NCBI RefSeq assembly: GCF_000233955.1
Contig: NZ_JH376581.1
Span: 1 to 64,000 of the forward strand
Reading direction: 5' to 3'
From: Paraprevotella clara YIT 11840
GTDB lineage: Bacteria; Bacteroidota; Bacteroidia; Bacteroidales; Bacteroidaceae
DNA length: 64,000 bases
Below the pieces are notes generated by a model, which saw only the letters and a list, made by a program, of their open reading frames with translations, was not told where the DNA came from and searched no databases. The stretch's first letter is position 1. The number at the start of each line of letters is the position of its first letter. A program made the translations under genes and the position numbers. This document shows, piece after piece, positions 7,764 to 59,529 of the stretch.

Positions 7764-7764
7764 A

Positions 7765-40935: not shown

Positions 40936-42708
40936 ATGTATTCCAAAAGACTCCATCCGAAAAAAGGTTTATGCCTTGCAGCCCTATTGTGTTTCAACAC
41001 TCATGCCATGCCTGCCCATTCCTTGCCCGGGCAAGAAACCATCGGCCATTCCACAGTCGATACGACTTTCACCGCCCCGAACGATTGGGCCGTCACTGCC
41101 ATCCCGTTCAAACTCTACGGAGAACGACAAGTCAACCACGTAAAAATCAACTGGCAACCGCCGAAAGGCATCCAATCCTATAAGGTATATAGAAACGGGC
41201 AACTCATCGGAGAAACCCAAGGGAATACTTATGATGATTATGACCTGAAAACGGACCAAACTTACACTTACCGGGTGGATGCTTATCGAGAACATCAAAA
41301 AGCAGCCAGTTCCGCAACACAAGAAACCCGCACCTTTACTTATTCCGGCGAGACGGCTTTGTACGACAACCGAAACGGCCGGCACCTCCGAACCACACCG
41401 GACAAACCGTCGGGATTTAAAATCGGCAAGACTTACTTCTCCTACCGTCTGCACCGAACCCACAAGAACTTGAATGGCAAGGAGGAAAACGGTTGGCTGC
41501 TTTCCGAATCAGAGTCGAAAACCGGACTAAAAGACAGTTGGAGCAAACCGCGGGAAATAGCATTCTATCCGGGCGTGAACTTCGAGGGCATCGGATTCCA
41601 CTATAATAAAAAGACACGCAAGGTCGTACTGTCCGCCCATTATGAAGACCAAGGCGGATATACCGCAGCTAAAATCTTTCTGGCACAAATCACGCCAAAA
41701 GGCGGAATCGAAATCGGCACCATGGAGCGCCCCTTGGGGCATGATTCCAGAGACCAGTCCCTGTTTGTCGATGAAGACGGGACGGCTTATCTCCTGTCCG
41801 CCACTAATATGAACAGCGACATCAACATCTACCGGTTGGATGAAACATGGACCAAACCCGTGGCACTGGCCAACACGATATGTAAAGGCCAACACCGTGA
41901 AACCCCTTCCATCCTTAAAAAGGACGGAACCTATTATTTTTTCAGTTCCAAAGCATCGGGCTGGTACCCCAGCCAGACGATGTATGCCTCAGCCGACCGT
42001 ATAGACGGCAAATGGTCTCCGCTGAAGGAAATAGGAAACAACTCAACTTACGGCGTACAATTCAACTACGTACAACAAACCGCCGGAACACGTGAGACGT
42101 TAGGGCTGTGGGGCTTCCACTGGGGCGCCCAATACCATCACCGGGACCCGGACGGAACTTTTACCCGTATCTCTCCGGCTACGTTCAACCGCGGATATGC
42201 TTCGATGAACTACTTCCGGTTCGTGGAGTTCCATGACCAATATGGTATCATCCCGGTACAGAACGGCAGGAATCTTACGTTGGGAGCCACGGTTGTGCCT
42301 TCACACGCACCGGGCGATGGTTCCGCCGCCCCGGATTGCATCACAGACGGTTCGGACATGGCCTCCTCTCCTTATTTCAAAAGCAGCCATTACCCTTACT
42401 CCTTGACCATAGAACTGCCCCAACCCTCCCGTATCTCTGAAATCAATCTGGCCACCCGGTTGGTCAACGGTTCCGAAACAGCTTATAAATACACCATAGA
42501 AGGCAGTATGGACGGACAGGAGTACCAAACACTCGTCGACGGAAGAAACAGTTGGACCGTAGGATTCCACATCCTCCCCGTCGAAGACCGTTCCGCGTAC
42601 AAGTTCCTCCGCCTCAATGTATTCCAAATCATAAATGTACACAACAACCATCCGGCCACATGGGCGGACGGAATATACGAGTTCACGGCATTCGGCTTTC
42701 CTTTGTAA
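40936..42708 (+). CDS. Secreted GH43-like five-bladed propeller protein with FN3 and F5/8-C domains
   Basis: 590 residues. Signal peptide about 1-28. An FN3-like domain follows (VKINWQPPKGIQSYKVYRNG, about 72-91), then a propeller with GH43-type blades: FEGIGFHYN, SRDQSLFVDEDGTAYLLSA (near 270-288), RETPSILKKDGTYYFFSS (about 317-334) and GWYPSQTMYASA. The E in RETPS lies where GH43 enzymes have the catalytic acid, and GWxPS-type segments are seen in the galactanase-like subfamilies. The C-terminal 140 residues form an F5/8 type C (CBM32-like) fold: YSLTIELPQPSRISEINLA, then FLRLNVFQ. It probably binds and perhaps cleaves an arabinan- or galactan-like side chain. The first catalytic Asp of GH43 is not obvious, so activity is not sure. 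Confidence 0.7.
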   Translation: MYSKRLHPKKGLCLAALLCFNTHAMPAHSLPGQETIGHSTVDTTFTAPNDWAVTAIPFKLYGERQVNHVKINWQPPKGIQSYKVYRNGQLIGETQGNTYDDYDLKTDQTYTYRVDAYREHQKAASSATQETRTFTYSGETALYDNRNGRHLRTTPDKPSGFKIGKTYFSYRLHRTHKNLNGKEENGWLLSESESKTGLKDSWSKPREIAFYPGVNFEGIGFHYNKKTRKVVLSAHYEDQGGYTAAKIFLAQITPKGGIEIGTMERPLGHDSRDQSLFVDEDGTAYLLSATNMNSDINIYRLDETWTKPVALANTICKGQHRETPSILKKDGTYYFFSSKASGWYPSQTMYASADRIDGKWSPLKEIGNNSTYGVQFNYVQQTAGTRETLGLWGFHWGAQYHHRDPDGTFTRISPATFNRGYASMNYFRFVEFHDQYGIIPVQNGRNLTLGATVVPSHAPGDGSAAPDCITDGSDMASSPYFKSSHYPYSLTIELPQPSRISEINLATRLVNGSETAYKYTIEGSMDGQEYQTLVDGRNSWTVGFHILPVEDRSAYKFLRLNVFQIINVHNNHPATWADGIYEFTAFGFPL

Positions 42709-42860: not shown

Positions 42861-44462
42861 TCAGTCCGTTGTTACGGCATGATCCTGAGGAATGATCAGA
42901 AAACTGAATCCGGCAGCCCCGCCCCCTCCATTCTCCAAACGAAGAAGGACACGATTCCAGCCTTGCTGGAAAGTAAAGGGTTCGATATGCTCGTCGATAT
43001 GATACCAACTGGTGCCTTTATCCTGCCAAACATCTTTCCCGTTAATCCATATACGGCCGCTGTCGTCCGTACCGATGGCCACCAACATGGTTGTCGCCTC
43101 ATCGAAGTACAGCTCCGTATAAGCATAATAAGTAGAATGTCCGGTCGTGACAGGCACCGTATTGTGCATGGACTCGCTCTGCATGAATTTCCAACGCAGG
43201 GTCCCATCCAGCTTCACCTCCTTCCCAATCATCTTAATCGGGTCGGACTCTGTCTCTTCGATACCCACGCCTACCTGACCATCCGTGTACACGGCGTCGA
43301 AATCGACTGAAATTTCAGGCTGATGGATTATGGCAAAATCATCCCGTCCGTAATTCTCCCACGGACCAATCATATACCATGTATTCACGTAAAGCCACCC
43401 TTTGCGCTCGGCATCTTTAGAGAAACGTCTTCCGGGTAACGCCTGAGCCTTAACCATACTTTCGTTCAAACGAGGGCCACGGTACTCACTATAGGGAGTC
43501 ATCACCTCATCATTTTCATAATTTACGCCGCCAAGGCCTCCATCTCCGCCTCCGCCACCGTCTCCGGTTCCTCCTCCGGCACCGCCGCCATTTCCGTTAC
43601 CTTTCCCATTACCGGCTGCATTTCCGGGTTTGCCGACATTACGGACCAAACCAAAAAGACTCTCCAAGCGTGAACCGGCCAAACCGGCCTGACGGGATGC
43701 CTGACTCAATAATCCCCGGTAATTATTCAAGTCGGCTGTCGATCTGACGGAAAGCCCGGCACTGGCATTGCTACGTCCCGAACGCTCCCAGTCTGCCCCT
43801 CCGGTTTGCATCGCTATCAACTCCTCAAAATCCGGCATACGGGTGGAACTTTGTTGCAGCGACTTATAAACCTCCGGGAAAGACAAACCTTTCTGCAACG
43901 TCTGCTTTGCCGCATTCACCGCCAAGTGGTTCTGTTGAATCTCACGTTCGTACTGACGTAACATCTCATAAATGTCCTGTACAGACGGGTCACTCCCCAA
44001 CGGAGGATTCCCCGCCTTCGGTATCTTACGGGCGGCAGAAACATCATTGGCATCCTTGGGCGCAGAGCGCGGCAACTTGCGGGCCTCAACCTGCGACAGA
44101 AGGCTTTCCTTGCGGTTACGCATCTTCTCAGCCATTTTTTGAAATTGCAAAAGCTGTCTCTTTAAACTTTTCTTCACCGACATTTCCGACTGCTCCACCA
44201 ATTGCTCGGCATAGCGGGACGGTAAAGTACGCTGCGCCTGTTCCGCTTTCATCTTCTCACTCAACTTGGCTACTTTCACGGCACGCGGTTTCAACGCACC
44301 CCGATGCTCTACCGGTTGTTTACCTTCCGGTAATTTCAAGGTACCGGCCGGAACTGGAACCGGAGCATAATAAATAGCCCATGCAAAAACCGCGCATGCC
44401 ACAATGGCCACAATCCAAGACAAGACAATGACTTTCCGGTTAGTTTTCGTTGTAGTGTTCAT
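42861..44462 (-). CDS. TonB-shaped inner membrane protein with PA14/lectin-like C-terminal domain
   Basis: 533 residues, last gene of an ExbB-ExbD-ExbD operon, overlapping the second ExbD gene by 23 bases. A basic N-terminus and one membrane helix (about 10-31) are followed by a long Lys/Arg/Glu/Gln-rich region with predicted coiled coil (about 55-210), a Gly-rich linker (about 270-305) and a globular C-terminal domain (about 340-525). That domain has WYMIGPWENYG, then TTMLVAIGTDDSGRIWINGK, then GWNRVLLRLEN, a pattern of PA14-like and related carbohydrate-binding jellyroll domains (G-x-D-D, then a W-x-N-G-K turn). Helix, stalk and periplasmic head is the TonB design, but no TonB C-terminal domain is present. 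It may be the force-transducing partner of the ExbB/ExbD motor with a sugar-binding head. This is a structural inference, not a known family role. Confidence 0.65.
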   Translation of the reverse strand: MNTTTKTNRKVIVLSWIVAIVACAVFAWAIYYAPVPVPAGTLKLPEGKQPVEHRGALKPRAVKVAKLSEKMKAEQAQRTLPSRYAEQLVEQSEMSVKKSLKRQLLQFQKMAEKMRNRKESLLSQVEARKLPRSAPKDANDVSAARKIPKAGNPPLGSDPSVQDIYEMLRQYEREIQQNHLAVNAAKQTLQKGLSFPEVYKSLQQSSTRMPDFEELIAMQTGGADWERSGRSNASAGLSVRSTADLNNYRGLLSQASRQAGLAGSRLESLFGLVRNVGKPGNAAGNGKGNGNGGGAGGGTGDGGGGGDGGLGGVNYENDEVMTPYSEYRGPRLNESMVKAQALPGRRFSKDAERKGWLYVNTWYMIGPWENYGRDDFAIIHQPEISVDFDAVYTDGQVGVGIEETESDPIKMIGKEVKLDGTLRWKFMQSESMHNTVPVTTGHSTYYAYTELYFDEATTMLVAIGTDDSGRIWINGKDVWQDKGTSWYHIDEHIEPFTFQQGWNRVLLRLENGGGGAAGFSFLIIPQDHAVTTD

Positions 44463-44865
44463 CGTACGTACGTATTCCTATATTATTCAAATTATAAAAC
44501 TGACAGGCATCCATCACTTCCACAAAACGTCCGAAAGGTGTATCCCTATCCATATCTATTCGTATGCGTCGGTCCGGAGTGGCTATACAGACCTCTCGTA
44601 ACTGTTCGTGAAGGAAGTTGGCCGTACAAGGCTGCCCGTCCCAATAAAAGTTCCCTTCGCTGTCCAGTCCCACAATGGCTTGTTTGTCGTCCGGCTTGAG
44701 TTTGACAGCCGCCTCCGAGGTCGGCAAATTCACCGGAATATCCCTGCTTTTCACTTTTGTCATGGTAGAAACCAAGAAAAAGATCAGCAACAGGAACACG
44801 CAGTCAATCAACGGAGACATAGAGACTTCAGGTTCCTCTTCGTTATTTCCTAAAGGTAGTTTCAT
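44440..44865 (-). CDS. ExbD/TolR family protein (second copy)
   Basis: 141 residues. One membrane helix near the N-terminus carries MSPLIDCVFLLLIFFLV (16-32), with the conserved Asp (D21) that takes up protons in ExbD/TolR. The rest is a periplasmic domain with the family fold: RDIPVNLPTSEAA, then IVGLDSEGNFYWDGQP and IRIDMDRDTPFGRFVEVMDAC. It overlaps the ExbD gene before it by 23 bases and the lectin-headed gene after it by 23, so all three are translated in tight coupling. Two different ExbD-type subunits next to one ExbB often form a mixed complex, known for TolQ/TolR- and ExbB/ExbD-like motors. Confidence 0.9.
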   Translation of the reverse strand: MKLPLGNNEEEPEVSMSPLIDCVFLLLIFFLVSTMTKVKSRDIPVNLPTSEAAVKLKPDDKQAIVGLDSEGNFYWDGQPCTANFLHEQLREVCIATPDRRIRIDMDRDTPFGRFVEVMDACQFYNLNNIGIRTYDEHYNEN

Positions 44866-45307
44866 AAGGCTTTCCTCCTAAACGGACACGCGTATGCGTA
44901 AATCCTTCCAATTGACATTTATCAAATATTTCTATCACGGTACTGACCGGCACCGAACGGTATGCAGCCACATCTATGGATATCTCCGTACCCACCTTTT
45001 CCCGCAATCCGTTCAGATAAGTATCCAAGTCTCCGATAGGCAGGTAATCATTCTCGCCGGTATAAGCGTCGTGATGCACCACCTCATAGACCTGCTTGTC
45101 TTCATCCACGGCAATAATGACCGTATTTTCCCCCGAACGGGTTGTCGACAAGCTGGAAGTCATCTCCGGAAGCGACAAGGGAATCTGCATTTCCCACTTC
45201 TTCATCATCGTTGTGACCAGAAAGAATATGAGCAACAGAAACACACAGTCTATCAAAGGCGACATCTGAATGTCTACTTTCTCTTCTTCGTCAAGAGGCA
45301 ATCTCAT
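44843..45307 (-). CDS. ExbD/TolR family protein (first copy)
   Basis: 154 residues. Membrane helix with MSPLIDCVFLLLIFFLVTTM at about 15-34 and the proton-carrying Asp at residue 20. The periplasmic part (IPLSLPEMTSS, IIAVDEDKQVYEVVHHD, SIDVAAYRSVPVSTVIEIFD) has the ExbD fold with a longer loop than its neighbour. It starts two bases after the ExbB stop. The two ExbD proteins are related but distinct (the membrane parts are almost the same, the periplasmic parts differ), so they probably have separate contacts with the C-terminal partner. Confidence 0.9.
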   Translation of the reverse strand: MRLPLDEEEKVDIQMSPLIDCVFLLLIFFLVTTMMKKWEMQIPLSLPEMTSSLSTTRSGENTVIIAVDEDKQVYEVVHHDAYTGENDYLPIGDLDTYLNGLREKVGTEISIDVAAYRSVPVSTVIEIFDKCQLEGFTHTRVRLGGKPYETTFRK

Positions 45308-45309
45308 GG

Positions 45310-46638
45310 CTATTCGGTTTTCTTGTTCAAATAAATGGCATTCACCACACTTTCTATTCCCATCTCTATTTGCGAACCCAAATTGGAAATCCGGCTTTTA
45401 AGAATGAAATACACAGCAATGGAAGGCATGGCCACCACCAGACCGGCTGCCGTAGTAATCAGAGCCTTCGAGATGGAGTCGGACAATATGGAAGCGCCAC
45501 CCTCATCTCCAAACAAGGCCACAAGCCCGAAAGCCTCGATCATTCCCACTATCGTTCCGAACAATCCTAACAAGGGGGACAAAGATGAAATGACAGTCAG
45601 CGGATAAATACGCGAAAGATGGCTCCGAATGTCCCGCGCCGCCATGTCACCGGCAGTCTGACATACCGTTTCCCAATCGGCATCCCGATGCTCCACGATA
45701 AAGCCGAGCGAATTGCCTAAAGTAGAAGAACTCTTTTTACATAAATCGACAGCACCATCATAATCCTTACGTGCAATGCATGCATTGACCTTTTCTGCCA
45801 GGTTCTTAGGTGCCAAACGTCCACGAGTGGAAGTAAAGAAACGTTGGATCGTAATGACCAAAGCCAAAATTCCCAGCAAATAAAGAGGATACATGATGAA
45901 ACCGCCGGCCTTGATCTGTGCGGCCCAGTCTATCTGCACCTGCTGTTCCGCCTCTTCTTCCTCTACAGGAGTGTCCAACGAAATGGAATCTGCCGCAGCA
46001 TCGTTCACCGTTTCTGCCGCAGCCACCTTACCCGGCAATATCTTTGGTGCCACATCGGCAAAAGCATCCTGAGTCGCCCCTAAGATGATATTATCGAAAC
46101 CGGCATCCCGACGGGTCGGACAAAGGAAAGACACGTCCGTCAACGTAAACTCGCCAAAGTCTTTCCACAAATCCCGGGTAACCACCATCCAACCGCCGGT
46201 CACCTTCTTGTCTACTTTCAGTCCGGAAAGTTCCTTCCCCGGACCGGCCATATATGTATAATTGTATTTTTTCCCGGGCGCATTACCCTTCACATTTTTC
46301 ACACCCAATTGCATACCGATTTCCTCTCCGCCCCATTTGATCCAAGCAAATGTAATATAACGGTATTGCCCCGGGCCGGGATTTTCACGGATAGGAATAG
46401 ACAATCCGGAAATACGGGTAGGTGTTTCCGAAGGTTGCACATAGATGTAATGCGTGCTCTTCTCCGAACTGCCTCCTTCCCGGACGGCATCGGGGACTGA
46501 AATCCGGGTGCCAGCCGGCACCTTGTCTTTAAACACTTCATAACGGTCCTTGGCCATTGCCTGGGATGTCCCCACCAGACAAGCCAATAACAAAGCCCAC
46601 ACCAACGAATACGTTCTCTTCTTCAATAAAATTCTCAT
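45310..46638 (-). CDS. ExbB/TolQ/MotA family proton channel with an N-terminal periplasmic domain
   Basis: 442 residues, about twice the length of ordinary ExbB. Residues 1-29 are a signal peptide. About 30-190 form a soluble jellyroll-like domain (YRYITFAWIKWGGEEIGMQL, then GGWMVVTRDLWKDFGEFTLT), followed by an acidic linker. The ExbB core starts near 235 with helix FIMYPLYLLGILALVITI, then VNACIARKDYDGAVDLCK, then two helices around SSLSPLLGLFGTIVGMIEAF and KALITTAAGLVVAMPSIAVY with the conserved TxxGL-type glycines. The domain order places the jellyroll in the periplasm, beside the channel. From memory, similar jellyroll domains occur in planctomycete proteins with WTVVTRDLFKDFG-like motifs. 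The gene is the first of a four-gene operon with its own promoter. Confidence 0.82.
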   Translation of the reverse strand: MRILLKKRTYSLVWALLLACLVGTSQAMAKDRYEVFKDKVPAGTRISVPDAVREGGSSEKSTHYIYVQPSETPTRISGLSIPIRENPGPGQYRYITFAWIKWGGEEIGMQLGVKNVKGNAPGKKYNYTYMAGPGKELSGLKVDKKVTGGWMVVTRDLWKDFGEFTLTDVSFLCPTRRDAGFDNIILGATQDAFADVAPKILPGKVAAAETVNDAAADSISLDTPVEEEEAEQQVQIDWAAQIKAGGFIMYPLYLLGILALVITIQRFFTSTRGRLAPKNLAEKVNACIARKDYDGAVDLCKKSSSTLGNSLGFIVEHRDADWETVCQTAGDMAARDIRSHLSRIYPLTVISSLSPLLGLFGTIVGMIEAFGLVALFGDEGGASILSDSISKALITTAAGLVVAMPSIAVYFILKSRISNLGSQIEMGIESVVNAIYLNKKTE

Positions 46639-47963: not shown

Positions 47964-47974
47964 TATCCGACAAA

Positions 47975-49698: not shown

Positions 49699-51411
49699 TT
49701 ACTGGTCACGCCATTGCTCTTCCGTCCTATAAGCGGAAAGGAAATTATAACCGTCCAATTTGGAATCTATGGCATCCGCACCACAGAGCCAATAAATAAT
49801 CTGGGGAACAACTAACGTATTTTCCATCACCAAATTACCTGAAGCCAATTTGTCCGGCAAATTATTAGCCAACTTTACAAAAGAAGGTTCAGACTTGAAT
49901 ATGAAATCCGGTCCTCCTTCAACTCGATTGGGAATAATTGAATCATTTTTCAACTCGTCGGGAGAAAAACGCCACTCTGCCAATAAATGCTCCCGTTGAG
50001 AATAGTTCTCCGGAAGGGTCCATAAACTTAAACACTCGTTGATATACTCATCTCCTAAGAGCGTACTCCATAATCGTACTGTTGCAGTATAAAAATTGAG
50101 TGAGGAATGTCCTATCGTCAAAGCCGATGAGTCATTCTCTACCCCCATAGCCTGAGTCTCGCTATATGACAATCTTTTCCCGTCATCAGACATTATATAC
50201 ATTCTACCATTGTCAGTCAAAGGCCCCAAACCTACATAAAAAGAATGCCACCGTGCGTCATTAAACGTATTCATACCAACCTCCAGAACCTTATTCCCAG
50301 ATATATATATTTTTACATCATTACGTTGACGGTGAAGCCCCCAATTATCTTTTCCCATATACCGAACCCAATTTTCACCCGTATAAGATTGATTATCCCC
50401 TACGATATTACACATCTTTATCTCCATTGTTAACTGTCGTTGAGATCCTATCCCGTATAACGCAGTGGAATCTTCGGCCACAGCCCATACATCATTTGAG
50501 AAACGTGCCCCCCATACAGTTTCTCCTTTCATTTCAAACGGTGTATAATGGGAATAATAAAAGATGCCGAAAATATCCCTTTCTTCGTCCGTAGCCCCTC
50601 CATACCGTCCGTCTTCCGTACCACCATGGTTGGAGGTCACACAAATCAGCCAGTCTTCATTGGCGATATCTTCCCGCGCATCAATGGCAGCCAACAATCG
50701 TCCCAACCCCGTATCCACTTGTTTAAGCCCATTCACATACTGTGCATTAGAAGCTGTAAAACCTCCAACCTTTCCCGCATCTAACACGCTCCTGAAACCG
50801 GCCAATGTAAAACGGTAGTCATCATGAGACAATTGACCGACCAAGGTCTCTACGGTCTCATCATCGGATGCCGTAGTCACCACAGACTGCATCAGTCCCA
50901 CAAAATGGTTCAGGTTTTCCCAGGGTGTCACACAGGACATTCGCAACATGGGATCATTATTGGACAGATACTGCACCACAGTATTGGGAACCACCGGTGA
51001 AGCTCCCATCACATAGTCCGGTGTATATGAATAATCCTTAATGCGATGCATTCGAGAATGAACCCCGGTAAGCATGGATGCCCAAGTCACAGGATCTTCC
51101 TCTGAAAAATCCCCCCGGTTATCGGACAACAAGGCATGGTCGTCCGCCAAACCCATCCAAGCATATTTACTATGTGCCAACATTTGTTTCAAAACGGGCA
51201 AATTACCCTTCTCGATTTCCTCTTTCACCACCGTTCCTCTTGCACCGTCGATATTGACCCAAAGCACGTAACGTACCACTCCGTCGTCTTTTTTGGATAC
51301 CTCGCTTGAGCCTCCGGCTATATCGGCTGGCGTATCATAGACCGTACAAGCCGTACACAATCCGCACATGAACCATACCAGCCACCTGAATTTATTTGCT
51401 ATCTTATTCAT
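49699..51411 (-). CDS. Lipoprotein with alkaline-phosphatase-superfamily fold and a LamG-like C-terminus (DUF4983 type)
   Basis: 570 residues, lipobox cysteine near residue 22. Residues about 45-320 look like the type I phosphodiesterase/sulfatase fold: VLWVNIDGARGT (49-60, with metal-binding D55), PVTWASMLTGVHSRMHRI (T109 where the nucleophile is expected), then LDAGKVGGF near 210-218, where active enzymes have D..GH, and TSNHGG (259-264), where they have SDHG. So D and H of these metal sites are replaced by K and N. The C-terminal part has a concanavalin-like fold (ARWHSFYVGLGP, ATVRLWSTLLGDEYIN) as in DUF4983 proteins. It shares its layout with the 608-residue protein at 53633-55459. It may have lost activity and bind a ligand. 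Confidence 0.7.
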   Translation of the reverse strand: MNKIANKFRWLVWFMCGLCTACTVYDTPADIAGGSSEVSKKDDGVVRYVLWVNIDGARGTVVKEEIEKGNLPVLKQMLAHSKYAWMGLADDHALLSDNRGDFSEEDPVTWASMLTGVHSRMHRIKDYSYTPDYVMGASPVVPNTVVQYLSNNDPMLRMSCVTPWENLNHFVGLMQSVVTTASDDETVETLVGQLSHDDYRFTLAGFRSVLDAGKVGGFTASNAQYVNGLKQVDTGLGRLLAAIDAREDIANEDWLICVTSNHGGTEDGRYGGATDEERDIFGIFYYSHYTPFEMKGETVWGARFSNDVWAVAEDSTALYGIGSQRQLTMEIKMCNIVGDNQSYTGENWVRYMGKDNWGLHRQRNDVKIYISGNKVLEVGMNTFNDARWHSFYVGLGPLTDNGRMYIMSDDGKRLSYSETQAMGVENDSSALTIGHSSLNFYTATVRLWSTLLGDEYINECLSLWTLPENYSQREHLLAEWRFSPDELKNDSIIPNRVEGGPDFIFKSEPSFVKLANNLPDKLASGNLVMENTLVVPQIIYWLCGADAIDSKLDGYNFLSAYRTEEQWRDQ

Positions 51412-51422
51412 ATTTCCACCTT

Positions 51423-53618
51423 TTAGTTTCCTTTCTTATAATATGTACCGAACTCCGACAATTTTTGTTGGCGATACTGATGATATTTCTCAAAAAGCCC
51501 CAAAGAATCGGTTTCCGCCTGCCGGTAAAGATTGCGTTCCTCGAACACCAAACGCAGGTAACGGGCTGAGACCTTCCCTTTGTCGAATCCGACAAAGCGC
51601 TCATTTTTAAGCGCGGAAGCCAATGTTTGACTGGCTTGGCCTATATCATGCCATGTTTGTTGTGCATGTTCCTGCAAAGCGAAACCAGAAGCGTCCGTAG
51701 TCTGTACCTTGAAAGATGACACACAGCGTACATCGCCATTGGCATAATAGAATCCATCGATGGTTTGGGACTTGCCCATGTCTATAATCACGTAATAAGG
51801 CAAGCTTCTGGGAGAATCCTGATAATTATTTTCCCAGGGAGACAAATAAGAACTCCAGTACGTGTAAGGATCACCGTCTATCAGTTTCCCTACATACAAC
51901 TTATCCGTCTCGTTGTTATACTCCGTATCCTCATTGGTGTTACCGGCACTGTCCAATGCCAGAATTTCCCACTCATTCCGGTCCACACGCACCGGATGGT
52001 TTGCTACGTCATAATCCGTCACATTCCGGTAAGGGTCATCCGCAGAAGGATCGATTTTCCAGATTTCCTTGTCCAACAGGGGGTATTTTGCCATTTCACT
52101 CCGCCTCGCATCTTCTATCGTATAGCCCCAATGTTCGAGGAATGGGGTCAAATCTACACCGAAATACTCGCATAAATCCGAATAAAAAGACAAGTCCGAA
52201 CTGCCAAAGACATTTCCTTCGCGGAATTTCGTCCACAACTTACGGTAGGCTGTCCATTCTTCCTCCTGCCTGTAACGGCTCTCGTATTTAGCAATCTGCA
52301 CCAATGGCAAAAGCCCGAGGATTCTATTATTGCATTTGGCGTTTTTATCCCACCAAGTGGTTAAATCCTTACTCCGATATTTCACCGTATCCGAAGCCGC
52401 AAAGGCCAAAGCCCATGATTTCGCTTGATTGAAACCGATTCCCATGTCCCCTAATCCGGAACTGATACCCTGCTTCCACGTGTGTTCGGCCAACCGATAG
52501 ATCGGCACAAAGGTCGTTTCCTTATACGAATCGGAAAGAAGAGAATATGTCGGGTGATAGCGCTCGACGAACTTGTCATACACATTAAAGACCTGTTGGT
52601 GGGCAATGGAATCCAATACGACCATCGCATCATACAGCCCCGATGTTTTGACGAACATAATCCCTTGGAGATTATCTATACTTCGCGTATCATTGACCGA
52701 CAATTGCGTGTCGAAGATAAAACGGTCCGTAAATTGGGGCATCATCTCGGACAGACGGCTATTCCCCTCGCTCATTCCTAAAGAATGGTAATAATAATAC
52801 ACAAGCTCATCCCACAACATCACAGCCTGTTCCATCTTTCCCGCAAAAGCAGGGTCGGCAGTAAGATACATTTCCATGCGGCTACGCTCCACGGAGAACG
52901 TCACATGTTTCCCCCGGATATCCAACCAAGGCACCGTAGTCGTCCGGATTTTCTTTTCCCATTCGGCTTTATCCGTTTCCCCTACAACAAAGTCCGGAGC
53001 GGCATACACGCCACAGAACTTGATTTCTGTCTCGGACAGCTCCTGCGTATTGCGGTCACGCAAAATCCAAATATACCCTCCCAATGATGAACGGACGGTA
53101 TTCTTACCCGGATACAAGGCCTTCTGAATATACACGATCGGTTCGCGTAACCCGGCATTGTTATTGGTCAAATCTTCCGTCTGCATGCCGATTTGTACCG
53201 TCAACCCCCACACGCCTTCCGGGACATAAATCGTGACCAGTTCTCCCGTACCGGCATACAAACCGGTGCTATAAATGGGTTGCGGAGCTTCTTCCTTATC
53301 AGCAAACGAAAGTCGCTTCAAGCATAAATCCTCCATACCGGCATACGTCCGGCTCAAATCCAATGCCACAAGGGTATCGGCAATACGGTGCTCGGTCAAC
53401 GTATCCACTAATCCGGGAAACAGACGTGCTTTCTCGTACATACTGACATCGATGCCCTGTATGGTGTCTACGGTCACGGCGGAAGAATCTGCCCGATTAA
53501 CATCCCACCCATCGTCAAAATCGAAATCACTGGCTTCGCATCCGGCCAGTACCCAAGAGGCCGACATGACTGTCCCCCACAAAAAAGAGGCTGCTATCTT
53601 ATTCATAAAATATTTCAT
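51423..53618 (-). CDS. M60-like lipoprotein lacking the HExxH motif, with an F5/8-C domain
   Basis: 731 residues, lipobox cysteine near residue 27. After an N-terminal region, STGLYAGTGELVTIYVPEGV (about 117-136) and LTVQIGMQTEDLTN begin the part that resembles M60 (enhancin/mucinase) domains, continuing with the GGYIWIL strand. In M60 peptidases a HExGHxxQ zinc site lies some 200 residues further on. Here the aligned stretch, near residues 389-399 (LGDMGIGFNQ), has no HExxH, and none is found elsewhere in the protein. The C-terminal 180 residues have an F5/8 type C fold (LIDGDPYTYWSSY, YYVIIDMGKSQTIDGFYY, YLRLVFEE). A glycoprotein-binding surface protein is more likely than a peptidase. The similarity to M60 is moderate. 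Confidence 0.65.
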   Translation of the reverse strand: MKYFMNKIAASFLWGTVMSASWVLAGCEASDFDFDDGWDVNRADSSAVTVDTIQGIDVSMYEKARLFPGLVDTLTEHRIADTLVALDLSRTYAGMEDLCLKRLSFADKEEAPQPIYSTGLYAGTGELVTIYVPEGVWGLTVQIGMQTEDLTNNNAGLREPIVYIQKALYPGKNTVRSSLGGYIWILRDRNTQELSETEIKFCGVYAAPDFVVGETDKAEWEKKIRTTTVPWLDIRGKHVTFSVERSRMEMYLTADPAFAGKMEQAVMLWDELVYYYYHSLGMSEGNSRLSEMMPQFTDRFIFDTQLSVNDTRSIDNLQGIMFVKTSGLYDAMVVLDSIAHQQVFNVYDKFVERYHPTYSLLSDSYKETTFVPIYRLAEHTWKQGISSGLGDMGIGFNQAKSWALAFAASDTVKYRSKDLTTWWDKNAKCNNRILGLLPLVQIAKYESRYRQEEEWTAYRKLWTKFREGNVFGSSDLSFYSDLCEYFGVDLTPFLEHWGYTIEDARRSEMAKYPLLDKEIWKIDPSADDPYRNVTDYDVANHPVRVDRNEWEILALDSAGNTNEDTEYNNETDKLYVGKLIDGDPYTYWSSYLSPWENNYQDSPRSLPYYVIIDMGKSQTIDGFYYANGDVRCVSSFKVQTTDASGFALQEHAQQTWHDIGQASQTLASALKNERFVGFDKGKVSARYLRLVFEERNLYRQAETDSLGLFEKYHQYRQQKLSEFGTYYKKGN

Positions 53619-53632
53619 AATCTTCTGTTCCG

Positions 53633-55459
53633 TTAATCGTTCGTTTCTAAATCCTCATAAGGAAGAGTGCGGGCTATACCGGTCCATCCCCAAGCATCGG
53701 GCACAGTAAAACCCAGCCACTGGAATGTCTGATAAGGGATATCTACCAGATTGATGGAAGTCTGGTAATAAGAGTTGGCAAACGGCGGCTTGATATTATC
53801 ATCCACCACAGTCCCGGATTCCCATACGGCATTATCAGACAGTTTCATGTCAGACCGTCCGGCATTGATGCCTCCGAATACCGAACCATATTTAGAGTAA
53901 TCGGGAATAACCTTACTCTTAAAATCCTCTTCACGGTCGCTCGGCCAATACCCAATCAGGTTGTCCCAATAGGGATAGTCTTCGCCCAACTCATCCAACC
54001 CGGTAAGCTTATAATTCTTGGCAATGAATTCAGGCGGCAAGGCCACATTGTAGACCTGCACATTGGTGATATAGTTTGTTGTGCCCGAAGTACTCGAATT
54101 AAATATTTTTTGGCCGACAGTAAAAGGAGCCCGGTCTCCGGTAGCCAAGTTCTTAGAAAGATCCTTATAAGGTGCATCACTGTGAAGATCACTCCGGCCA
54201 TCCTTATACTGTATGAACTTTTTGTTCTTGAAATCAAAAACAGCCGTCAATGTATGCCATGCCCAATCATTCAACGTAGACCAGGAGTTTTGAGACCATA
54301 TCACCTCTCCCGCAGCATAGCTCTTGACACGCCAACCGTCGCAACCCACCTGCCATCCTTGTCCTTCTCCTGGATTAGCCGTCAATGCTTTGGAAACAAA
54401 AGGATTCCAATGGTTGTTATTCGGTCCCTTAGGACAATAAACCATGAATTGCACCGTATACGAAACCGTGTCATAAGGCACGCTGCCATCTCCCGGGTCA
54501 AACTCGAAATCAAACAAAGTCGGGTCTATTACCTTGGCATATTCCGTGGCATTCTCAGTGCCATACAACGGGGTCCAATATTTATATTCCAAATCGTTTT
54601 CGGAAGAAGGTGCCAACAACAACTGTTTCCCCAACCTGTAATTATGATACATCGCAAACATATTACGGTCTTTCATTTCATATACATTCTCTCCACTATT
54701 GTCTGCCACCCCACCGGAAGGAGAGGTAACAACGACCAACCAATTCTCAATCGAATAATCAGGACGAGCCTGCAAAGCCGACACAATTTGTCCCACATGG
54801 CGATCCACCACAGACACGGCATCAAGCACTTCTTCCGTAGGATACCCTGCATTATCCTGGCCTTCCGGTATCACAAAACCATACTGTTCACCTGCCAATT
54901 GTACTCCATTGTATTCCACAGCCATAAAAGTAGGAGCTGTTTCCCCGGCAGACAATTCATCCACAACGCGGGCCGTGATTTGTTCATCCGTCCCCCAAAA
55001 AGAATCATCGGCCTTACGGGCATACGAATCATAAAAATCCGTAGTTGAAGCCAGAATCTCCGTACGGCAGCCGGCATCCAGATTCTTCAGCAGGGAGAGG
55101 ATATCCGGTGTGTCCGAAGTACGGTTCAGCAAACCGGTGAACAAATTATCCCTTCCCATACGGTTACTCACCACGGTATCCGACCGCGTATCTGCCAAAC
55201 CGTTAAAGGTATACAAGGCATGGGACATCATGGATGACATATTCTCGACCCTGCGGTCGTTATTGGCCTCCCGCACAGCCGATCCGCTTGCGCCATTCAA
55301 CACAATCCAAAGCACGTGCCCCTCACGGTCATCATATCCGGGTGAAGGATAATCCTTCCTAAGCCCATCTTCCAAATCGTCATTACAAGAAACCAACGGT
55401 GTACACAAGGTACAAATACCCGCCACACATAGGGCAATATAATTCCTATATCTTTTCAT
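53633..55459 (-). CDS. Lipoprotein with degenerate alkaline-phosphatase-like fold and LamG-like domain (DUF4983 type)
   Basis: 608 residues, lipobox cysteine at 25 (PLVSC). It has the same layout as the 570-residue protein, but every catalytic residue seems lost. VLWIVLNGASGS (49-60) has N55 where the neighbour has D55. The nucleophile segment is SNRMGRDNLFTGL, with no Thr or Ser at the position. VQLAGEQYGF has E where active enzymes have H, and VTSPSGG (244-250) has SPS in place of SDH. The C-terminal half is a concanavalin-like domain (WHTLTAVFDFKNKKFIQYKDG, ITNVQVYNVAL) that binds glycans in other proteins. It lies 15 bases after the IPT/delta-60 gene. The best reading is a catalytically dead relative that now binds a ligand at the surface. 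Confidence 0.7.
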   Translation of the reverse strand: MKRYRNYIALCVAGICTLCTPLVSCNDDLEDGLRKDYPSPGYDDREGHVLWIVLNGASGSAVREANNDRRVENMSSMMSHALYTFNGLADTRSDTVVSNRMGRDNLFTGLLNRTSDTPDILSLLKNLDAGCRTEILASTTDFYDSYARKADDSFWGTDEQITARVVDELSAGETAPTFMAVEYNGVQLAGEQYGFVIPEGQDNAGYPTEEVLDAVSVVDRHVGQIVSALQARPDYSIENWLVVVTSPSGGVADNSGENVYEMKDRNMFAMYHNYRLGKQLLLAPSSENDLEYKYWTPLYGTENATEYAKVIDPTLFDFEFDPGDGSVPYDTVSYTVQFMVYCPKGPNNNHWNPFVSKALTANPGEGQGWQVGCDGWRVKSYAAGEVIWSQNSWSTLNDWAWHTLTAVFDFKNKKFIQYKDGRSDLHSDAPYKDLSKNLATGDRAPFTVGQKIFNSSTSGTTNYITNVQVYNVALPPEFIAKNYKLTGLDELGEDYPYWDNLIGYWPSDREEDFKSKVIPDYSKYGSVFGGINAGRSDMKLSDNAVWESGTVVDDNIKPPFANSYYQTSINLVDIPYQTFQWLGFTVPDAWGWTGIARTLPYEDLETND

Positions 55460-55474
55460 ATTTTATTTCTTTTT

Positions 55475-57196
55475 TTAATGATCCAAATCCAATTCCAACA
55501 TCAACATGTTATGCACCACTTTACTATTGAAACGGGTAAACTTGCCCATCAACAGCAAACCGTAAGACCCCACGGTTGTTTGGCTTTCCTGTACTTGATA
55601 AAGCTGGCCGCTGAATACCCCCGGGACATTGAACTTCTGCTGAGCCGTACCGTCCATATCCAATATCAAAAAACCGTTCCGGGGAACACCGGCGTAAGTG
55701 GTGAAAGTACCGGACACAACCACCTTGCCACGATCTATCAACTGGGCGAAATTGGGGGAACCTCCGGTCATTTCTTTCAGTTTAAAATCCGAATCCAATG
55801 TTCCGTCCGAGTTCAACATGACCACTTGTTTCCGTTCCTGTCCGTCGTATTCTGTAAAGCTTCCCACAAGCATCATCTTTCCCAACGACTTGTTGTAGCG
55901 AACCATGGACACACTCCCATTCGGGCCGGCTCCGACATGAGCCAGAAAATCCTTGTCGACCTCACCGTCCCTATCCAAACGGATGATTCCCGGTGCGTCC
56001 ACGCCATCAAATGACGTGAAACTCCCCACAAGGATTACCCCGTCGTCTCCGTCCATACAGGCATCCGACACTTTTCCTCCCTCGGCACCCGTATAACGAT
56101 TGCCAGGTACCACCAACCTATAAAGGGAGTCCAATTTACCGTGTTCATCCATCCGGAATACAGAGGCTACATCCGTCTTACGCTGTGCATTGTCCTCGAA
56201 AACATAGGCATATTCCGTGCAGACATACTGCGTGAAATTACCTACAGCCACGATTTTCTGATCAGATGTGACAAAAGAACGTATGATTTCCTGAGTCGCA
56301 CCTCCGTTCAAGGCCGACTGTCCGACATATTTTTGTTCTGCCCAATTATTCTCAGTCTCCCAATATATGCGACAAATGGTATCCGCGCTCGCATTTGAAT
56401 TCAGAATCATGATATTGTCACCATATACCCGGTCCTTTTTAGAAGCCGGAGAATGCCCGTTCCATGAATAATAAGCTGAAAAAGCACCGGAAACCAACAT
56501 TCTCCCATCGCTGAAAGAGGATATGGATTTAATATACGACGACGTAAACAGATCCTCGGCATCTATCATCAATCCATTCTCGGCCGCGAAATTAGAAGAG
56601 TTAGCCTTAGCCACATTACCCTGATAATCCACGAAACCGATTCCATTAAGCTTAACATCCCCGATGGTCGTAAAATCCCCGACGACATAATAATTCGGTG
56701 CCGTAGTGTATTTCTCCAAACAGCCGTAAACAGCACCGTCAGTCCCCTTGGCATACAATGCCCAATTGTTATCTATGGAAACGTTACCCAAAACCGGGAA
56801 AAACGGTCCGTAGAAAACCTGATTATCTATTACCAGATACGTAACGCCTGACGAAACCTCATAGGGGACTTCTACAGCTAAAGTCGTGTCTGTCACTGCC
56901 AATATCTTGCTTTCCTGCTCTCCGAGATAGAATTTAAACCGGTATTCCCCTTCCTGAGAACCACAGTACTTCAGAAGCCCTTCGGCTTTGAATACCACCG
57001 TATCCCCGGGATACCCTTCCGACGGCACGGGATCCTCGGCAGACAAAGCAATGTCGAAAGGTTCCTTTCCACCAGCATAAGGGTCGGAAGTTATCGTGTC
57101 GTCCAACTCCTCGCATCCTATCCCAACCGACACCCAAGCTGTCATACAGGCAAAACGCAAAATACGACTCACTCTTTTTAAAACCTCTTTTCTCAT
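55475..57196 (-). CDS. Lipoprotein with IPT-like (DUF5008-type) and delta-60 propeller repeats
   Basis: 573 residues, lipobox cysteine at about 28 (VGIGC). Residues about 55-135 form an IPT/TIG-like sandwich (GYPGDTVVFKAEGLLKY, YRFKFYLG, TTLAVEVPYEVSSG). The remaining 430 residues are propeller repeats of the delta-60 type: PNYYVVGDFTTIGDVKLNGI, DGRMLVSGAFSAYYSWNG, DGVILVGSFTSFDGVDAPGI, KMMLVGSFTEYDGQERKQVV, KVVVSGTFTTYAGVPRNGFL. Each has a G-x-F-T-x-Y/F core, as in DUF5008-type proteins beside SusC/SusD. It probably sits on the outer face as a surface glycan- or peptide-binding protein. It overlaps the fasciclin gene by four bases. Confidence 0.75.
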   Translation of the reverse strand: MRKEVLKRVSRILRFACMTAWVSVGIGCEELDDTITSDPYAGGKEPFDIALSAEDPVPSEGYPGDTVVFKAEGLLKYCGSQEGEYRFKFYLGEQESKILAVTDTTLAVEVPYEVSSGVTYLVIDNQVFYGPFFPVLGNVSIDNNWALYAKGTDGAVYGCLEKYTTAPNYYVVGDFTTIGDVKLNGIGFVDYQGNVAKANSSNFAAENGLMIDAEDLFTSSYIKSISSFSDGRMLVSGAFSAYYSWNGHSPASKKDRVYGDNIMILNSNASADTICRIYWETENNWAEQKYVGQSALNGGATQEIIRSFVTSDQKIVAVGNFTQYVCTEYAYVFEDNAQRKTDVASVFRMDEHGKLDSLYRLVVPGNRYTGAEGGKVSDACMDGDDGVILVGSFTSFDGVDAPGIIRLDRDGEVDKDFLAHVGAGPNGSVSMVRYNKSLGKMMLVGSFTEYDGQERKQVVMLNSDGTLDSDFKLKEMTGGSPNFAQLIDRGKVVVSGTFTTYAGVPRNGFLILDMDGTAQQKFNVPGVFSGQLYQVQESQTTVGSYGLLLMGKFTRFNSKVVHNMLMLELDLDH

Positions 57197-57960
57197 AATC
57201 CACCCTCCTTCTTTCTTTGAATTGCTTCATCAGAAACTCGCCGAACCTGCTCCAGAGGCAAGACACCGGCATTGACCACACTCTCCAAAAAACGGTCGCG
57301 ATCGAACCCGAAATAATGATCCGTGAAACGGATGACGTGCACCACACCGTTATAAGGTTGTATATCGCATGAAGAAACATAAGCATTCACCATATCCATC
57401 GTGGTAAAATCATAGACATAGGAATAAAGAATCTGACGGGCACCCGCATATTTCACGTTAGCTGCATCATAATACACCACACCCATGTTCATCGGCACCT
57501 TGGCCATAGAGTAATAAGCTCCGCCCGGATAAGCGGATACGGCTGCGGTATCCAACTGAGGAATGTCTTTCAGGCAGTATTTGCCTGGAATGATATACAT
57601 CGACAAATATTCTTTCCAAACCTCCGGCTGAATCTGGTGCAAGTCCTTGATACTGTCTTCCCCACGCCTCCAATACAGTTGCTCGTTCAGATAATCCATG
57701 GATTTTTCAATCGAAAAGTCCGTCGGGGCAAAAAATGTGATTTCTTCATTTTGCAACACAGAGTCCAAACCAGCATAATGTATCAAGTCGGTCAGTTCCG
57801 AAAAATAATGCTTATCGGGATGCTGGTTCAAATATTCCAGTACTGTTCCGTTGTAATAAGGATTATGCTTGCCACCATCCTGGAGATAATCCTCATTCTG
57901 GCAGTTGACAATGCAAACCGTCAAGACTACTGCCATAATTCCTTTCCACAAATATTTCAT
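57193..57960 (-). CDS. Fasciclin-domain lipoprotein
   Basis: 255 residues, lipobox cysteine at about 20 (CIVNC). Residues about 38-215 form one fasciclin (FAS1) fold: VLEYLNQHPDKHYFSELTDL (41-60), then ITFFAPTDFSIEKSMDYLN (about 74-92), and a closing strand NGVVHVIRFTDHYF near 204-217, the H2-type sequence of FAS1. Such proteins stick to other proteins or glycans at the surface and are often found in Bacteroidetes SusC/SusD operons of this kind. It lies 18 bases after the SusD gene and overlaps the IPT/delta-60 gene by four bases. Confidence 0.88.
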   Translation of the reverse strand: MKYLWKGIMAVVLTVCIVNCQNEDYLQDGGKHNPYYNGTVLEYLNQHPDKHYFSELTDLIHYAGLDSVLQNEEITFFAPTDFSIEKSMDYLNEQLYWRRGEDSIKDLHQIQPEVWKEYLSMYIIPGKYCLKDIPQLDTAAVSAYPGGAYYSMAKVPMNMGVVYYDAANVKYAGARQILYSYVYDFTTMDMVNAYVSSCDIQPYNGVVHVIRFTDHYFGFDRDRFLESVVNAGVLPLEQVRRVSDEAIQRKKEGGL

Positions 57961-57978: not shown

Positions 57979-59529
57979 TTATTCCCAATAGTTATTCAAT
58001 GTGATGAGCGTGTTGTTCTCCTGTGCCGTTTTGCTGATAGGCCAGGTCCAGGCGCCTTCTCGGAATTCACTACGCGTTACGGGATGATAACAATAATTAT
58101 TATCGCAAACCTTCCCCGTACGTACCAAATCATAGAAATAATGCCCTTCTCCCATCAATTCACGTACACGCTCCCAATAAATGGCATCTTTCAGGTCTTC
58201 GCCGGAAAGCGACAAGGTAGAAGCACCGGCACGCGTCCGTATACGGTTCAACAACTCGCACGCTTTCCCGTCATTCGTTCCCAAATCCGCCAAAGCCTCA
58301 GCATACAACAATATGGCATCAGCCAGACGGAACACGACCTGGTTGCCCGCATTGGCCGTAAGTGATCCACCATCATTGTAAATATCCGGATTCTCAAACT
58401 TCAGGATTTCCTTAGGGGCTCCATCCAATGTGGAATAAATATTTTCATCGAACCAGGCATCAACCCTATCATCAGTCTCCGACGGAGGATATATTTTAGT
58501 AAGGAAATCGTAAGTGTAACACAAATTAGGAGTAGACTTAGCAGGACTGTACACGGAACACATGACTTCATTGGCAAAAACCGCCTTAAATTCAAAGACC
58601 TCGTTCCCGGAAATATAACTCGGGTTCTGTGCAATCTCAAAAATGCCTTCGCTCGAACCTCCACGGAAAATCGTGTTGGTCTGGCTCAGAGGGAGCAGAG
58701 TATATGTTCCGCCGTTCTGGTTCACCAATTGCTCTCCATAATTCACTACGGCCTCATAATAGGACGTTTTATGGCTCTCATCAAACCCTGCCAACCACAT
58801 ATTCACATGCATCAGCAAAGCCAAGACGGCACCTCGGGATCCTCTTATCGCTTTCTTATCCAGACTAACTTGTGCCCAAGGTAAATAAGCGGCATCCGGG
58901 TCGTCAACCAAAATCTGGTTCAAATCCGAAGCAATGGCCTGCAATACCGTCACCATATTGGTACGTGGCAAAGGTTCCTGATGGTAGGCATCAGTATAAT
59001 ACGGCACATCCCCGAAATTACGGACCAAGAAGAAATAAGCCAGGCTACGCATGAACACGGCTTCGGCCTTAAAGGCTTCAGCCTCGGTTTTAGGTACGGA
59101 AGTACGCCCGATTTCTGCAATCAGGATATTGGCCGACTGAATGACTTTATAAAATTCCCGCCACGACATGATACCATCTGCCTGCACATTCCCGTCCCCG
59201 GAATAATGTTCACGTAAGCCGTTCAAGTCATTATTCGCCAAATCGGTTATGTAGTTCTCGCCGCTACTATAGGATTCTATCGGAGCACAGCGCAAGTCGC
59301 CTGAATAAAGGATGTAGCAAGCCTTCTGCATAGCAGCAGCCCTGAATTCCGTGTACATACTGTTCACAAAACCGTTGACGCGTTCCGTCGTAGCACCGTC
59401 CCACATTTCATCCCCCGACAGTTTCTCATCGCTCGTGGTATCCATCAAGCCGCAACTGCTGAAAAATACGGCAGAACACAGCGCGGCCACCATTGTTGAT
59501 TTTATCTTGAATTGTATTTTCATATCCAT
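57979..59529 (-). CDS. RagB/SusD family lipoprotein
   Basis: 516 residues with a lipobox cysteine at about residue 26 (FFSSC). The sequence shows the SusD pattern: LSGDEMWDGATTERVNGFVN (37-56), EAEAFKAEAVFMRSLAYFFL near 146-165, VFRLADAILLYAEALADLGT (about 403-422) and the C-terminal VRELMGEGHYFYDLVRTG, the usual WFDLRR-like block. The protein covers the SusC barrel of the previous gene at the surface and catches the nutrient. It lies 20 bases after the SusC gene. An ATG six bases later (residue 3) is the other possible start. Confidence 0.95.
   Translation of the reverse strand: MDMKIQFKIKSTMVAALCSAVFFSSCGLMDTTSDEKLSGDEMWDGATTERVNGFVNSMYTEFRAAAMQKACYILYSGDLRCAPIESYSSGENYITDLANNDLNGLREHYSGDGNVQADGIMSWREFYKVIQSANILIAEIGRTSVPKTEAEAFKAEAVFMRSLAYFFLVRNFGDVPYYTDAYHQEPLPRTNMVTVLQAIASDLNQILVDDPDAAYLPWAQVSLDKKAIRGSRGAVLALLMHVNMWLAGFDESHKTSYYEAVVNYGEQLVNQNGGTYTLLPLSQTNTIFRGGSSEGIFEIAQNPSYISGNEVFEFKAVFANEVMCSVYSPAKSTPNLCYTYDFLTKIYPPSETDDRVDAWFDENIYSTLDGAPKEILKFENPDIYNDGGSLTANAGNQVVFRLADAILLYAEALADLGTNDGKACELLNRIRTRAGASTLSLSGEDLKDAIYWERVRELMGEGHYFYDLVRTGKVCDNNYCYHPVTRSEFREGAWTWPISKTAQENNTLITLNNYWE

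Follow-up and report, generated by a model that had tools for sequence, protein, structure and literature searches.

A four-gene ExbB-ExbD-ExbD cassette with a TonB-shaped, PA14-related fourth protein beside a dual SusC/SusD locus in Bacteroidota

TonB and TolA are the textbook carriers of energy from the inner membrane to the outer membrane. In 2025, a further type of transducer with a vWA head was proposed in Planctomycetes-Verrucomicrobia-Chlamydiae (PVC) bacteria and Bacteroidetes, encoded with paired, different TolR/ExbD-like genes; the accessible part of that report gives its function as unknown and lists an S-x3-H (SHLS-type) motif in the helices of TonB, TolA, and vWA transducers (PMC12204202). 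Here we describe a cassette of four genes at positions 42861-46638 of a 64,000-nucleotide stretch of Paraprevotella clara YIT 11840 (positions 1 to 64,000 of contig NZ_JH376581.1; hereafter called the window), which encodes an ExbB-type channel subunit, two ExbD-type subunits, and a 533-residue protein with the shape of TonB. The terminal domain of this protein, the head, is related to PA14 as judged by profile comparison, at scores below the Pfam cutoff. With a probability of about 0.6, we read the cassette as a motor of the ExbBD/TolQR type that would be driven by the proton motive force, would have its own PA14-headed transducer, and would be dedicated in Bacteroidota to one receptor locus with two SusC/SusD pairs.

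As far as the accessible text of the report goes, the nearest precedent of the cassette is the vWA-headed transducers (PMC12204202). Both systems combine motor genes including an ExbD pair with a TonB-shaped protein that carries a foreign head, and the SHLS-type motif is found in divergent members of the family described here. The head is of the vWA type there and PA14-related here, and a TPR gene is not a constant neighbor here; no match to the vWA family was obtained in the head protein of the window or in two distant members that were scanned. The Tol system (TolQ-TolR-TolA) shares with the cassette the helical stalk and the type of motor, and TolQ was the best PDB match of the ExbB profile, but the cassette has no TolA-type head and no Tol-Pal family was seen among the annotated neighbors. 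Likenesses to the Ton system are the ExbB and ExbD families, the transmembrane Asp, a transducer whose single N-terminal membrane helix is followed by a long periplasmic part, and SusC-type receptors nearby. Unlike the Ton system, the cassette has a head that is not TonB_C, two distinct ExbDs, an ExbB with an extra periplasmic domain, and, in 24 of 25 loci, a Lys at the ExbB position that we take to be Glu176 in Escherichia coli.

In the literature on ExbB/ExbD and energy transducers we found no description of a PA14-headed transducer family, and reports outside that scope may exist; the accessible parts of PMC13274419, PMC12505986, PMC12418764, and PMC11790493 do not mention one. The original prediction, which had been made from the letters of the window, stated that a proton-motive motor acting on a sugar-binding head was not a described function. 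Within the literature covered, this stands for the PA14-related family, but motor-linked non-TonB heads as such, namely those of the vWA type, were already described in 2025, according to the accessible part of the report (PMC12204202).

The cassette and its PA14-related head

The cassette lies on the minus strand and has the following features.

45310..46638, minus strand: ExbB-type channel subunit, 442 residues (PF01618, E 1.7e-20; Foldseek match to E. coli ExbB 5sv0, E 3.2e-6)
46063..46548, minus strand: periplasmic beta-sandwich domain of ExbB, residues ~31-192 (model confidence score, pLDDT, ~70-90 there)
44843..45307, minus strand: ExbD1, 154 residues, transmembrane Asp retained (PF02472, E 7.4e-19; motif SPLIDCVFLLLIFFLV)
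44440..44865, minus strand: ExbD2, 141 residues, transmembrane Asp retained (PF02472, E 1.4e-34)
42861..44462, minus strand: TonB-shaped head protein, 533 residues (open reading frame [ORF], Pfam scan, structure model)
44370..44438, minus strand: N-terminal membrane helix of the head protein, residues 9-31 (model and hydropathy; no S-x3-H motif)
43650..44282, minus strand: helical stalk of the head protein, residues 61-271 (model helices 61-76, 82-127, 161-191, 195-202, and 242-269)
43473..43649, minus strand: Gly-rich linker of the head protein, residues 272-330 (plain in sequence; model pLDDT <50)
42864..43472, minus strand: PA14-related head, residues 331-533 (model strands, HHalign to PA14, alignment of heads)

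The presence of an ExbB, two ExbDs, and the 533-residue protein, as proposed in the original prediction, was confirmed by ORFs and Pfam matches, and the same genes recur together in other genera and phyla, which goes beyond chance. The TonB/TolA-like layout of membrane helix, helical stalk, Gly-rich linker, and beta head was likewise borne out by model and sequence, with low confidence for the head. ExbD1 and ExbD2 share 33% identity. The genes had been described as overlapping by 23 bases; this is true of the ExbD1/ExbD2 and ExbD2/head junctions, but ExbB and ExbD1 are spaced by 2 bases and do not overlap. Among 13 close loci, the overlap between ExbD2 and the head gene amounts to 23-29 bases in 11 and hinges on the choice of start in the remaining 2, and the ExbB/ExbD1 and ExbD1/ExbD2 junctions are less conserved than this overlap. 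Coupled translation, which had been taken as given, may control the stoichiometry of the products.

The head protein matched no Pfam family at E ≤ 1 and no NCBIfam family at E ≤ 0.1, and the PHROGs route was also without result. This includes TonB_C, whose Pfam model does detect TonBs at other places of the window genome; when the head was compared by HHalign with five of these TonB_C domains, the value was 0.3%, and the low-confidence model shows no TonB fold, all in line with the original claim. A PA14-like head had also been proposed, and here HHalign gave 80.7% over 65 columns, and 82.9% over 64 columns with a wider head set, against 19 PA14 rows. Against all 30 PA14 rows without filtering, the values were 81.6% over 45 columns and 84.9% over 47 columns, while seven control runs, including the one with TonB_C domains, gave 0.1-2.6%. 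The PA14 rows came from relatives; 30 loci were fetched, 26 were used in the first test, 19 passed a filter requiring Asp-Asp, and the repeat took all 30. The Pfam domain search for PA14 itself stayed below threshold.

The structure model of the head protein was calculated from an alignment of 12 rather close rows, which is the probable cause of its weakness in the head: the helices have fair confidence scores, and the head, with pLDDT mostly <60, consists of strands alone over residues 334-529, bar two short helices. The top Foldseek row for this low-confidence head model was the Kluyveromyces marxianus beta-glucosidase 3ac0 (E 1.0e-3), which we take to hold a PA14 domain. A phmmer search of the head protein against the PDB returned weak rows, nearly all within the Gly-rich region. 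A profile built from the head alignment matched repeat-driven propellers and, weakly, entries labeled "Lectin" (E 0.013-0.015) in the PDB; this search was not used as evidence.

Across 28 heads with 29-93% identity to the window copy, 23 positions are invariant, among them an Asp-Asp pair and, 5-7 residues downstream, Trp-x-Asn. The head domain is also present in 17 further proteins of other Bacteroidota; the 8 of these that were scanned contained DUF2961 in three cases and DUF4838, Melibiase_2, DUF362, or TPR in one or two each. A carbohydrate-related origin of the domain is plausible. The head is a predicted, unproven sugar binder, for which the fusions to DUF2961, DUF4838, and Melibiase_2 proteins provide indirect support.

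The ExbB protein starts with a signal-like N terminus followed by the periplasmic beta-sandwich domain, two elements that were absent from the original prediction. Foldseek rows for this domain included CBM11 (6r31, 1v0a) and CBM29 (1gwm) with E values of 1.9e-4 to 8.7e-4 and a LAST-MAM chain with an E value of 1.4e-4. It is absent in the distant Verrucomicrobiota ExbBs of loci L077-L092, in which the profile match begins at position 201-237. When searched against the PDB, the ExbB profile matched TolQ/ExbB entries with E values of 3.4e-10 to 8.8e-9, the best being the E. coli-type TolQ.

Motor residues were counted in 25 loci, the divergent loci L091, L092, and L116-L125 lying outside this count. 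The transmembrane Asp is kept in 25/25 ExbD1 and 25/25 ExbD2 proteins, and the second transmembrane helix (TM2) of ExbB contains a GT motif as well as a Glu (GM-I/V-E-A/S-F) in all 25. This TM2 Glu, together with the Lys that replaces the usual Glu of the third transmembrane helix in 24 of the 25, would be compatible with a charge swap in the proton path. In the standard ExbB of the window genome, the Glu176 position is occupied by Val, as read by eye.

Five of 44 head proteins have S-x3-H inside the membrane helix (L091, L092, L121, L124, and L125), and L120 has a helix His without the motif; an automatic match in L116 sits past the helix and was excluded. In a midpoint-rooted tree, these six proteins all fall within a divergent group of eight (L091, L092, and L120-L125). 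A single ExbD was seen in seven of the eight divergent loci, and the clade of the window has two ExbDs and no helix His. The pattern is suggestive of a loss of the His alongside the gain of a second ExbD.

Conservation and distribution of the cassette

In the window genome, an assembly of 4.23 Mb, ExbB was found at two places and ExbD at four, and six ORFs match TonB_C. Its other ExbB-ExbD-ExbD set is located on contig 16 with an ordinary TonB nearby; the ExbB of the cassette and that of this standard set are 25% identical. The closest named relative of the head protein is that of Paraprevotella xylaniphila; identity to the window copy is 80-81% within Paraprevotella and 49-68% in other genera and phyla.

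We examined 48 head loci from Bacteroidota, Verrucomicrobiota, and genomes on the Planctomycetes side, comprising two fetched sets of 33 and 14 and the window. One genome-contig scan had given 14 loci and genome surveys gave more; near-duplicates (L005-L007) and shared genomes mean that the 48 are not independent events. An ExbB gene stands alongside the head gene in 44 of them, and the fourth gene is thus kept together with ExbB/ExbD across genomes. Three of the exceptions (L004, L074, and L119) end at a contig edge beside the gene. The remaining one, L016, is an ExbB-head fusion ORF: at 7728-8246 of this locus, from a Pirellulales metagenome-assembled genome (MAG), the first ExbB membrane helix is joined to the last third of the head in one frame, which looks like either an internal deletion of an earlier cassette or a collapsed assembly. 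The genes are reshuffled but not separated in L085-L090 and L127 (ExbD-head-ExbB-ExbD), and in L080 the head gene is split across two ORFs. An additional ORF of 276 residues lies between ExbD2 and the head gene in the Verrucomicrobiota locus L078 (9748-10578). Correlations of gene-to-gene distances among the four genes were 0.925-0.954 in 25 loci, values that are raised by shared ancestry; they point to probable co-evolution of the four cassette genes, which we count in favor of a dedicated motor.

The distribution of the cassette is patchy. It was found in 3 of 18 genomes of the window's own genus, including the window genome itself, and in a phylum-wide sample the only full-length match among 395 genomes was again the window's own, with 13 others matching weakly in other proteins. 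In the genus of Bacteroides faecis, 6 of 149 genomes were positive, three of which were known beforehand, and the order sample gave 1 of 295, the center genome itself. The phylum of an Akkermansiaceae MAG yielded 14 of 288 genomes at E ≤ 1e-20, four being close relatives, and the phylum of the Pirellulales MAG yielded 8 of 199 at E ≤ 1e-15, one of them the L016 remnant. The latter survey comprised 19 places, from which ten regions with 13 places were fetched and five short-frame places of G1334 as well as L052, the place of L016, were left out. Weaker head matches in other proteins in the genus and phylum samples and L053 and L054 were not counted as cassette loci.

In one Verrucomicrobiota genus, that of genome G581 (genomes of 2.3-3.2 Mb; possibly a gut genus), the head was present in a frame of 944-986 residues in 13/13 genomes. 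Eight of the 13 were inspected, seven of which showed the order ExbD-head-ExbB-ExbD and one a contig edge after head-ExbB-ExbD. A second, Bacteroidota-like form occurs in 5 of the 13. This survey gave 19 places, six of which were left out (one each in G1184, G1185, G1186, G1188, G1189, and G1190). By these comparisons, the four-gene unit is an apparently old, conserved module that spans three phylum-level groups, and its patchy distribution suggests horizontal spread.

Within the head protein, identity to the window copy in 11 relatives was 68-93% for the head and 41-81% for the stalk, and the head is better conserved than any other part of this protein. In ten relatives, identity was 56-89% for the ExbB core, 59-91% for ExbD1, 72-94% for ExbD2, and 65-93% for the C-terminal 215 residues of the head protein; the claim that the head is the best conserved part of the whole unit was dropped, as ExbD2 is about equally conserved. 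Because a lectin that tracks shifting substrates is expected to vary more than this head does, the strong conservation suggests that the head may serve a fixed partner or a common glycan rather than act as a substrate-specific lectin. Compared with P. xylaniphila, the ratio of nonsynonymous to synonymous substitutions (dN/dS) was 0.02-0.08 per gene, with dS values of 1.1-2.4 that are near saturation.

The receptor locus beside the cassette in Bacteroidota

In the window, the cassette is flanked by the following genes.

40936..42708, plus strand: GH43-like protein carrying an F5/8C domain and convergent with the cassette (G454 and G457 have relatives next to their cassettes; 53% identity)
49699..51411, minus strand: phosphodiesterase-like lipoprotein, family FAM2, with altered DHGG-type motif (PF01663, E 3.4e-4, below cutoff)
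51423..53618, minus strand: M60-like protein with F5/8C domain, FAM3, HExxH absent in 6/6 genomes (Pfam scan, orthologue comparison)
53633..55459, minus strand: second phosphodiesterase-like protein, FAM4, motif without His in 6/6 (PF01663, E 5.3e-4, below cutoff)
55475..57196, minus strand: DUF5008/DUF5124/DUF5122 propeller-type protein, FAM5 (domain annotation)
57193..57960, minus strand: Fasciclin-domain protein, FAM6 (domain annotation)
57979..59529, minus strand: SusD-b, FAM7 (domain annotation, orthologue matches)
59550..62744, minus strand: SusC-b, a TonB-dependent receptor, FAM8 (domain annotation, orthologue matches)
62766..63938, minus strand: DUF5007 protein, FAM11 (domain annotation, orthologue matches)

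Beyond the window, the same contig (L097) continues with SusD-a, SusC-a, and a hybrid two-component regulator, which brings the total to two SusC/SusD pairs. The cassette had been said to follow a SusC/SusD operon directly. In fact, 8 ORFs and 11.3 kb intervene between SusD-b and ExbB, with a gap of 623 bases immediately before ExbB, but the conserved linkage to the locus described below is stronger than the original prediction could see.

We extended the flanks to 38-60 kb in five Bacteroidota, i.e., Sphingobacterium sp., B. faecis, Bacteroides finegoldii, Bacteroides sp., and Sunxiuqinia indica, and left those of L003, L004, L005, L007, L010, L012, and L014 unextended. The dual SusC/SusD locus of the window adjoins the cassette in 5/5 extended loci, with at least the b pair in all. 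SusC-b, SusD-b, the Fasciclin protein, the DUF5008-type propeller, the two phosphodiesterase-like proteins, and the M60-like protein are present in all five. Reciprocal matches were obtained for the DUF5007 protein, a small protein, and SusD-a in four and for SusC-a and the hybrid two-component regulator in three, some pieces of the locus falling at slice or contig ends. Parts of the locus were also seen in L003 and L012. The distance from the cassette to the nearest gene of the block is ~3-11 kb; the window, B. faecis, B. finegoldii, and Sphingobacterium have the cassette downstream on the same strand, Bacteroides sp. has it inverted, and in Sunxiuqinia it lies upstream. An assessment based on 8-kb flanks, according to which the neighbors vary and there is no fixed partner, was dropped once the wider flanks showed the conserved locus. 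ExbD1 and ExbD2 of G457 are masked by a longer opposite-strand ORF in the orthologue listing and are visible in L011. The link to the receptor locus was observed in Bacteroidota only.

Several members of this locus lack residues that we take to be metal sites in the enzymes they resemble. Although the window's M60-like protein exceeds the Pfam cutoffs for M60, HExxH is absent in 6/6 orthologues. One phosphodiesterase-like family has an S-x-x-G-G motif without His in 6/6, and the other has the His in 5/6, preceded by Asn or Gly. The locus thus has a stretch of apparent pseudoenzymes (window 49699-55459; orthologues in L160-L173). Such a locus, in which the proteins that are conserved best resemble binding proteins, would suit a bulky-ligand receptor. 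Since O-glycoproteins are the targets of M60 relatives, our guess for the substrate is a glycoprotein.

The GH43-F5/8C gene and a GH35 gene are each common to 3/6 genomes. The nearest downstream gene of the cassette is a glycoside hydrolase in 6 of 8 annotated loci (yes in the window, L003, L009, L011, L012, and L013; no in L005 and L008; L006, L007, L010, L014, and L015 outside the count), as a raw count. Two tandem, related, lipoprotein-like genes encoding 222 and 233 residues lie between receptor locus and cassette at 47262-48643; they match no Pfam family, and both match one P. xylaniphila gene (57% and 62%). No exact match to the Bacteroidota-type promoter pattern was found before ExbB; the pattern has 6 matches in the window versus 2.84 expected. 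A terminator-like hairpin on the minus strand at 46759-46741, upstream of ExbB, may separate the receptor locus and the cassette into two transcription units; such sites, 7 found versus 5.3 expected, occur near chance level.

Function of the cassette and alternative explanations

In the mechanism that we propose by homology, the ExbB pentamer would enclose the ExbD1/ExbD2 pair, and proton flow past the transmembrane Asp residues would move this pair. The 533-residue protein would dock on ExbB through its membrane helix, so that the motion could run along the helical stalk and the Gly-rich linker to the PA14-related head near the outer membrane. There, the head would not grip a TonB box but would engage a conserved periplasmic-side partner or glycan of one surface receptor locus, composed of the two SusC/SusD pairs and the M60-like, phosphodiesterase-like, fasciclin, and propeller lipoproteins, several of them apparently noncatalytic. 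Pull or release by the motor might help the receptor to import or free a bulky substrate, which could be a glycoprotein. The gene content and its conservation, the link to the motor genes and, in the extended Bacteroidota loci, to the receptor locus, the retention of the Asp residues, and the profile relation of the head to PA14 are established; complex, motion, ligand, and substrate are predictions.

Several observations weigh against a dedicated PA14-headed motor. The HHalign match to PA14 is limited to 45-65 columns in the C-terminal half of the head, the Pfam gathering score for PA14 was never reached (3 of 28 heads match weakly, best E 0.038), and the model of the head is poor. The ExbB position of Glu176 is Lys in 24/25 loci and Leu in one (L013), which could mean an altered proton path. 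The Verrucomicrobiota loci L015, L075, and L076 contain the cassette, and no match to the dual SusC/SusD locus was found in their flanks of 5-9 kb; moreover, cassette and locus may have been inherited or received as one block in the six genomes. The S-x3-H motif is absent from the membrane helix of the window's head protein. Since this motif is likewise missing from the genome's standard TonB, its absence is not decisive, and it was dropped as an argument against motor coupling.

The cassette might instead be an ordinary extra Ton energizer for the neighboring SusCs, its head standing in for the TonB C terminus by direct binding to the plug or N-terminal domain of SusC. In favor of this explanation, the conserved locus contains two SusC genes with plug domains, the linkage holds in 5/5 extended loci, and the head is highly conserved, as a fixed protein partner would demand. 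We nevertheless consider it unlikely, as the genome already has an ExbB-ExbD-ExbD set on another contig and six TonB_C ORFs, the Verrucomicrobiota cassettes are without matches to these SusCs in the fetched flanks, and the head domain is found elsewhere in glycoside hydrolase-type, DUF362, and TPR proteins (8 of 17 scanned). The occurrence of the head domain in carbohydrate-active proteins would suit a glycan sensor or tether instead of a transport motor, in which the periplasmic beta domains of ExbB and the head protein would bind sugar or peptidoglycan and thereby control the opening of the proton channel or hold the outer membrane in place. Such a role, which would agree with two beta-rich domains in one presumed complex and with a hybrid two-component regulator within the locus, seems to us rather improbable: the periplasmic domain of ExbB is missing in distant members and therefore is not essential to the design, the rarity of the cassette (6/149, 1/295) is unlike that of a housekeeping tether, and the long stalk and linker suit force transmission. 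The patchy distribution (3/18 in the genus and 1/395 in the phylum sample, own genome included), the broken copy L016, and the split head gene of L080 might be explained by a chance neighborhood or a relic, an ExbBD operon that has spread horizontally and whose fourth gene is decaying. This is very improbable in view of the conservation: dN/dS is 0.02-0.08, nearly all of the other loci examined have intact frames, no part of the head protein is conserved better than the head, and the linkage recurs in three phylum-level groups.

If the cassette is a dedicated motor, the family adds to the known transducers another head type that is related to domains of sugar-handling proteins and whose functional context is given, in Bacteroidota, by a single conserved receptor locus. 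One can then test whether uptake, adhesion, or release is the task of such motors and whether a special motor is required for large glycoproteins. Going further, we tentatively suggest a second, TonB-independent way of powering outer membrane uptake, in which the lectin-like head would work mechanically on a noncatalytic dual SusC/SusD receptor and pull in or release an intact glycoprotein or bulky glycan; the related Verrucomicrobiota form may serve mucin-type import, and S-x3-H would have been lost when the second ExbD was gained. If the Verrucomicrobiota form does act in mucin import, one principle would join two phyla of gut glycan feeders. According to the accessible parts of two reports, the mucin utilization locus MUL1 of Akkermansia muciniphila is said to resemble Sus (PMC13174399), and Amuc_0546 is listed among transporter genes, apparently as a biopolymer transporter (PMC11480725). 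A connection between the cassette and MUL1 is a lead only; as far as that text goes, MUL1 is a host-glycan uptake locus of a member of the Verrucomicrobiota, the group in which one genus has the head in 13/13 genomes.

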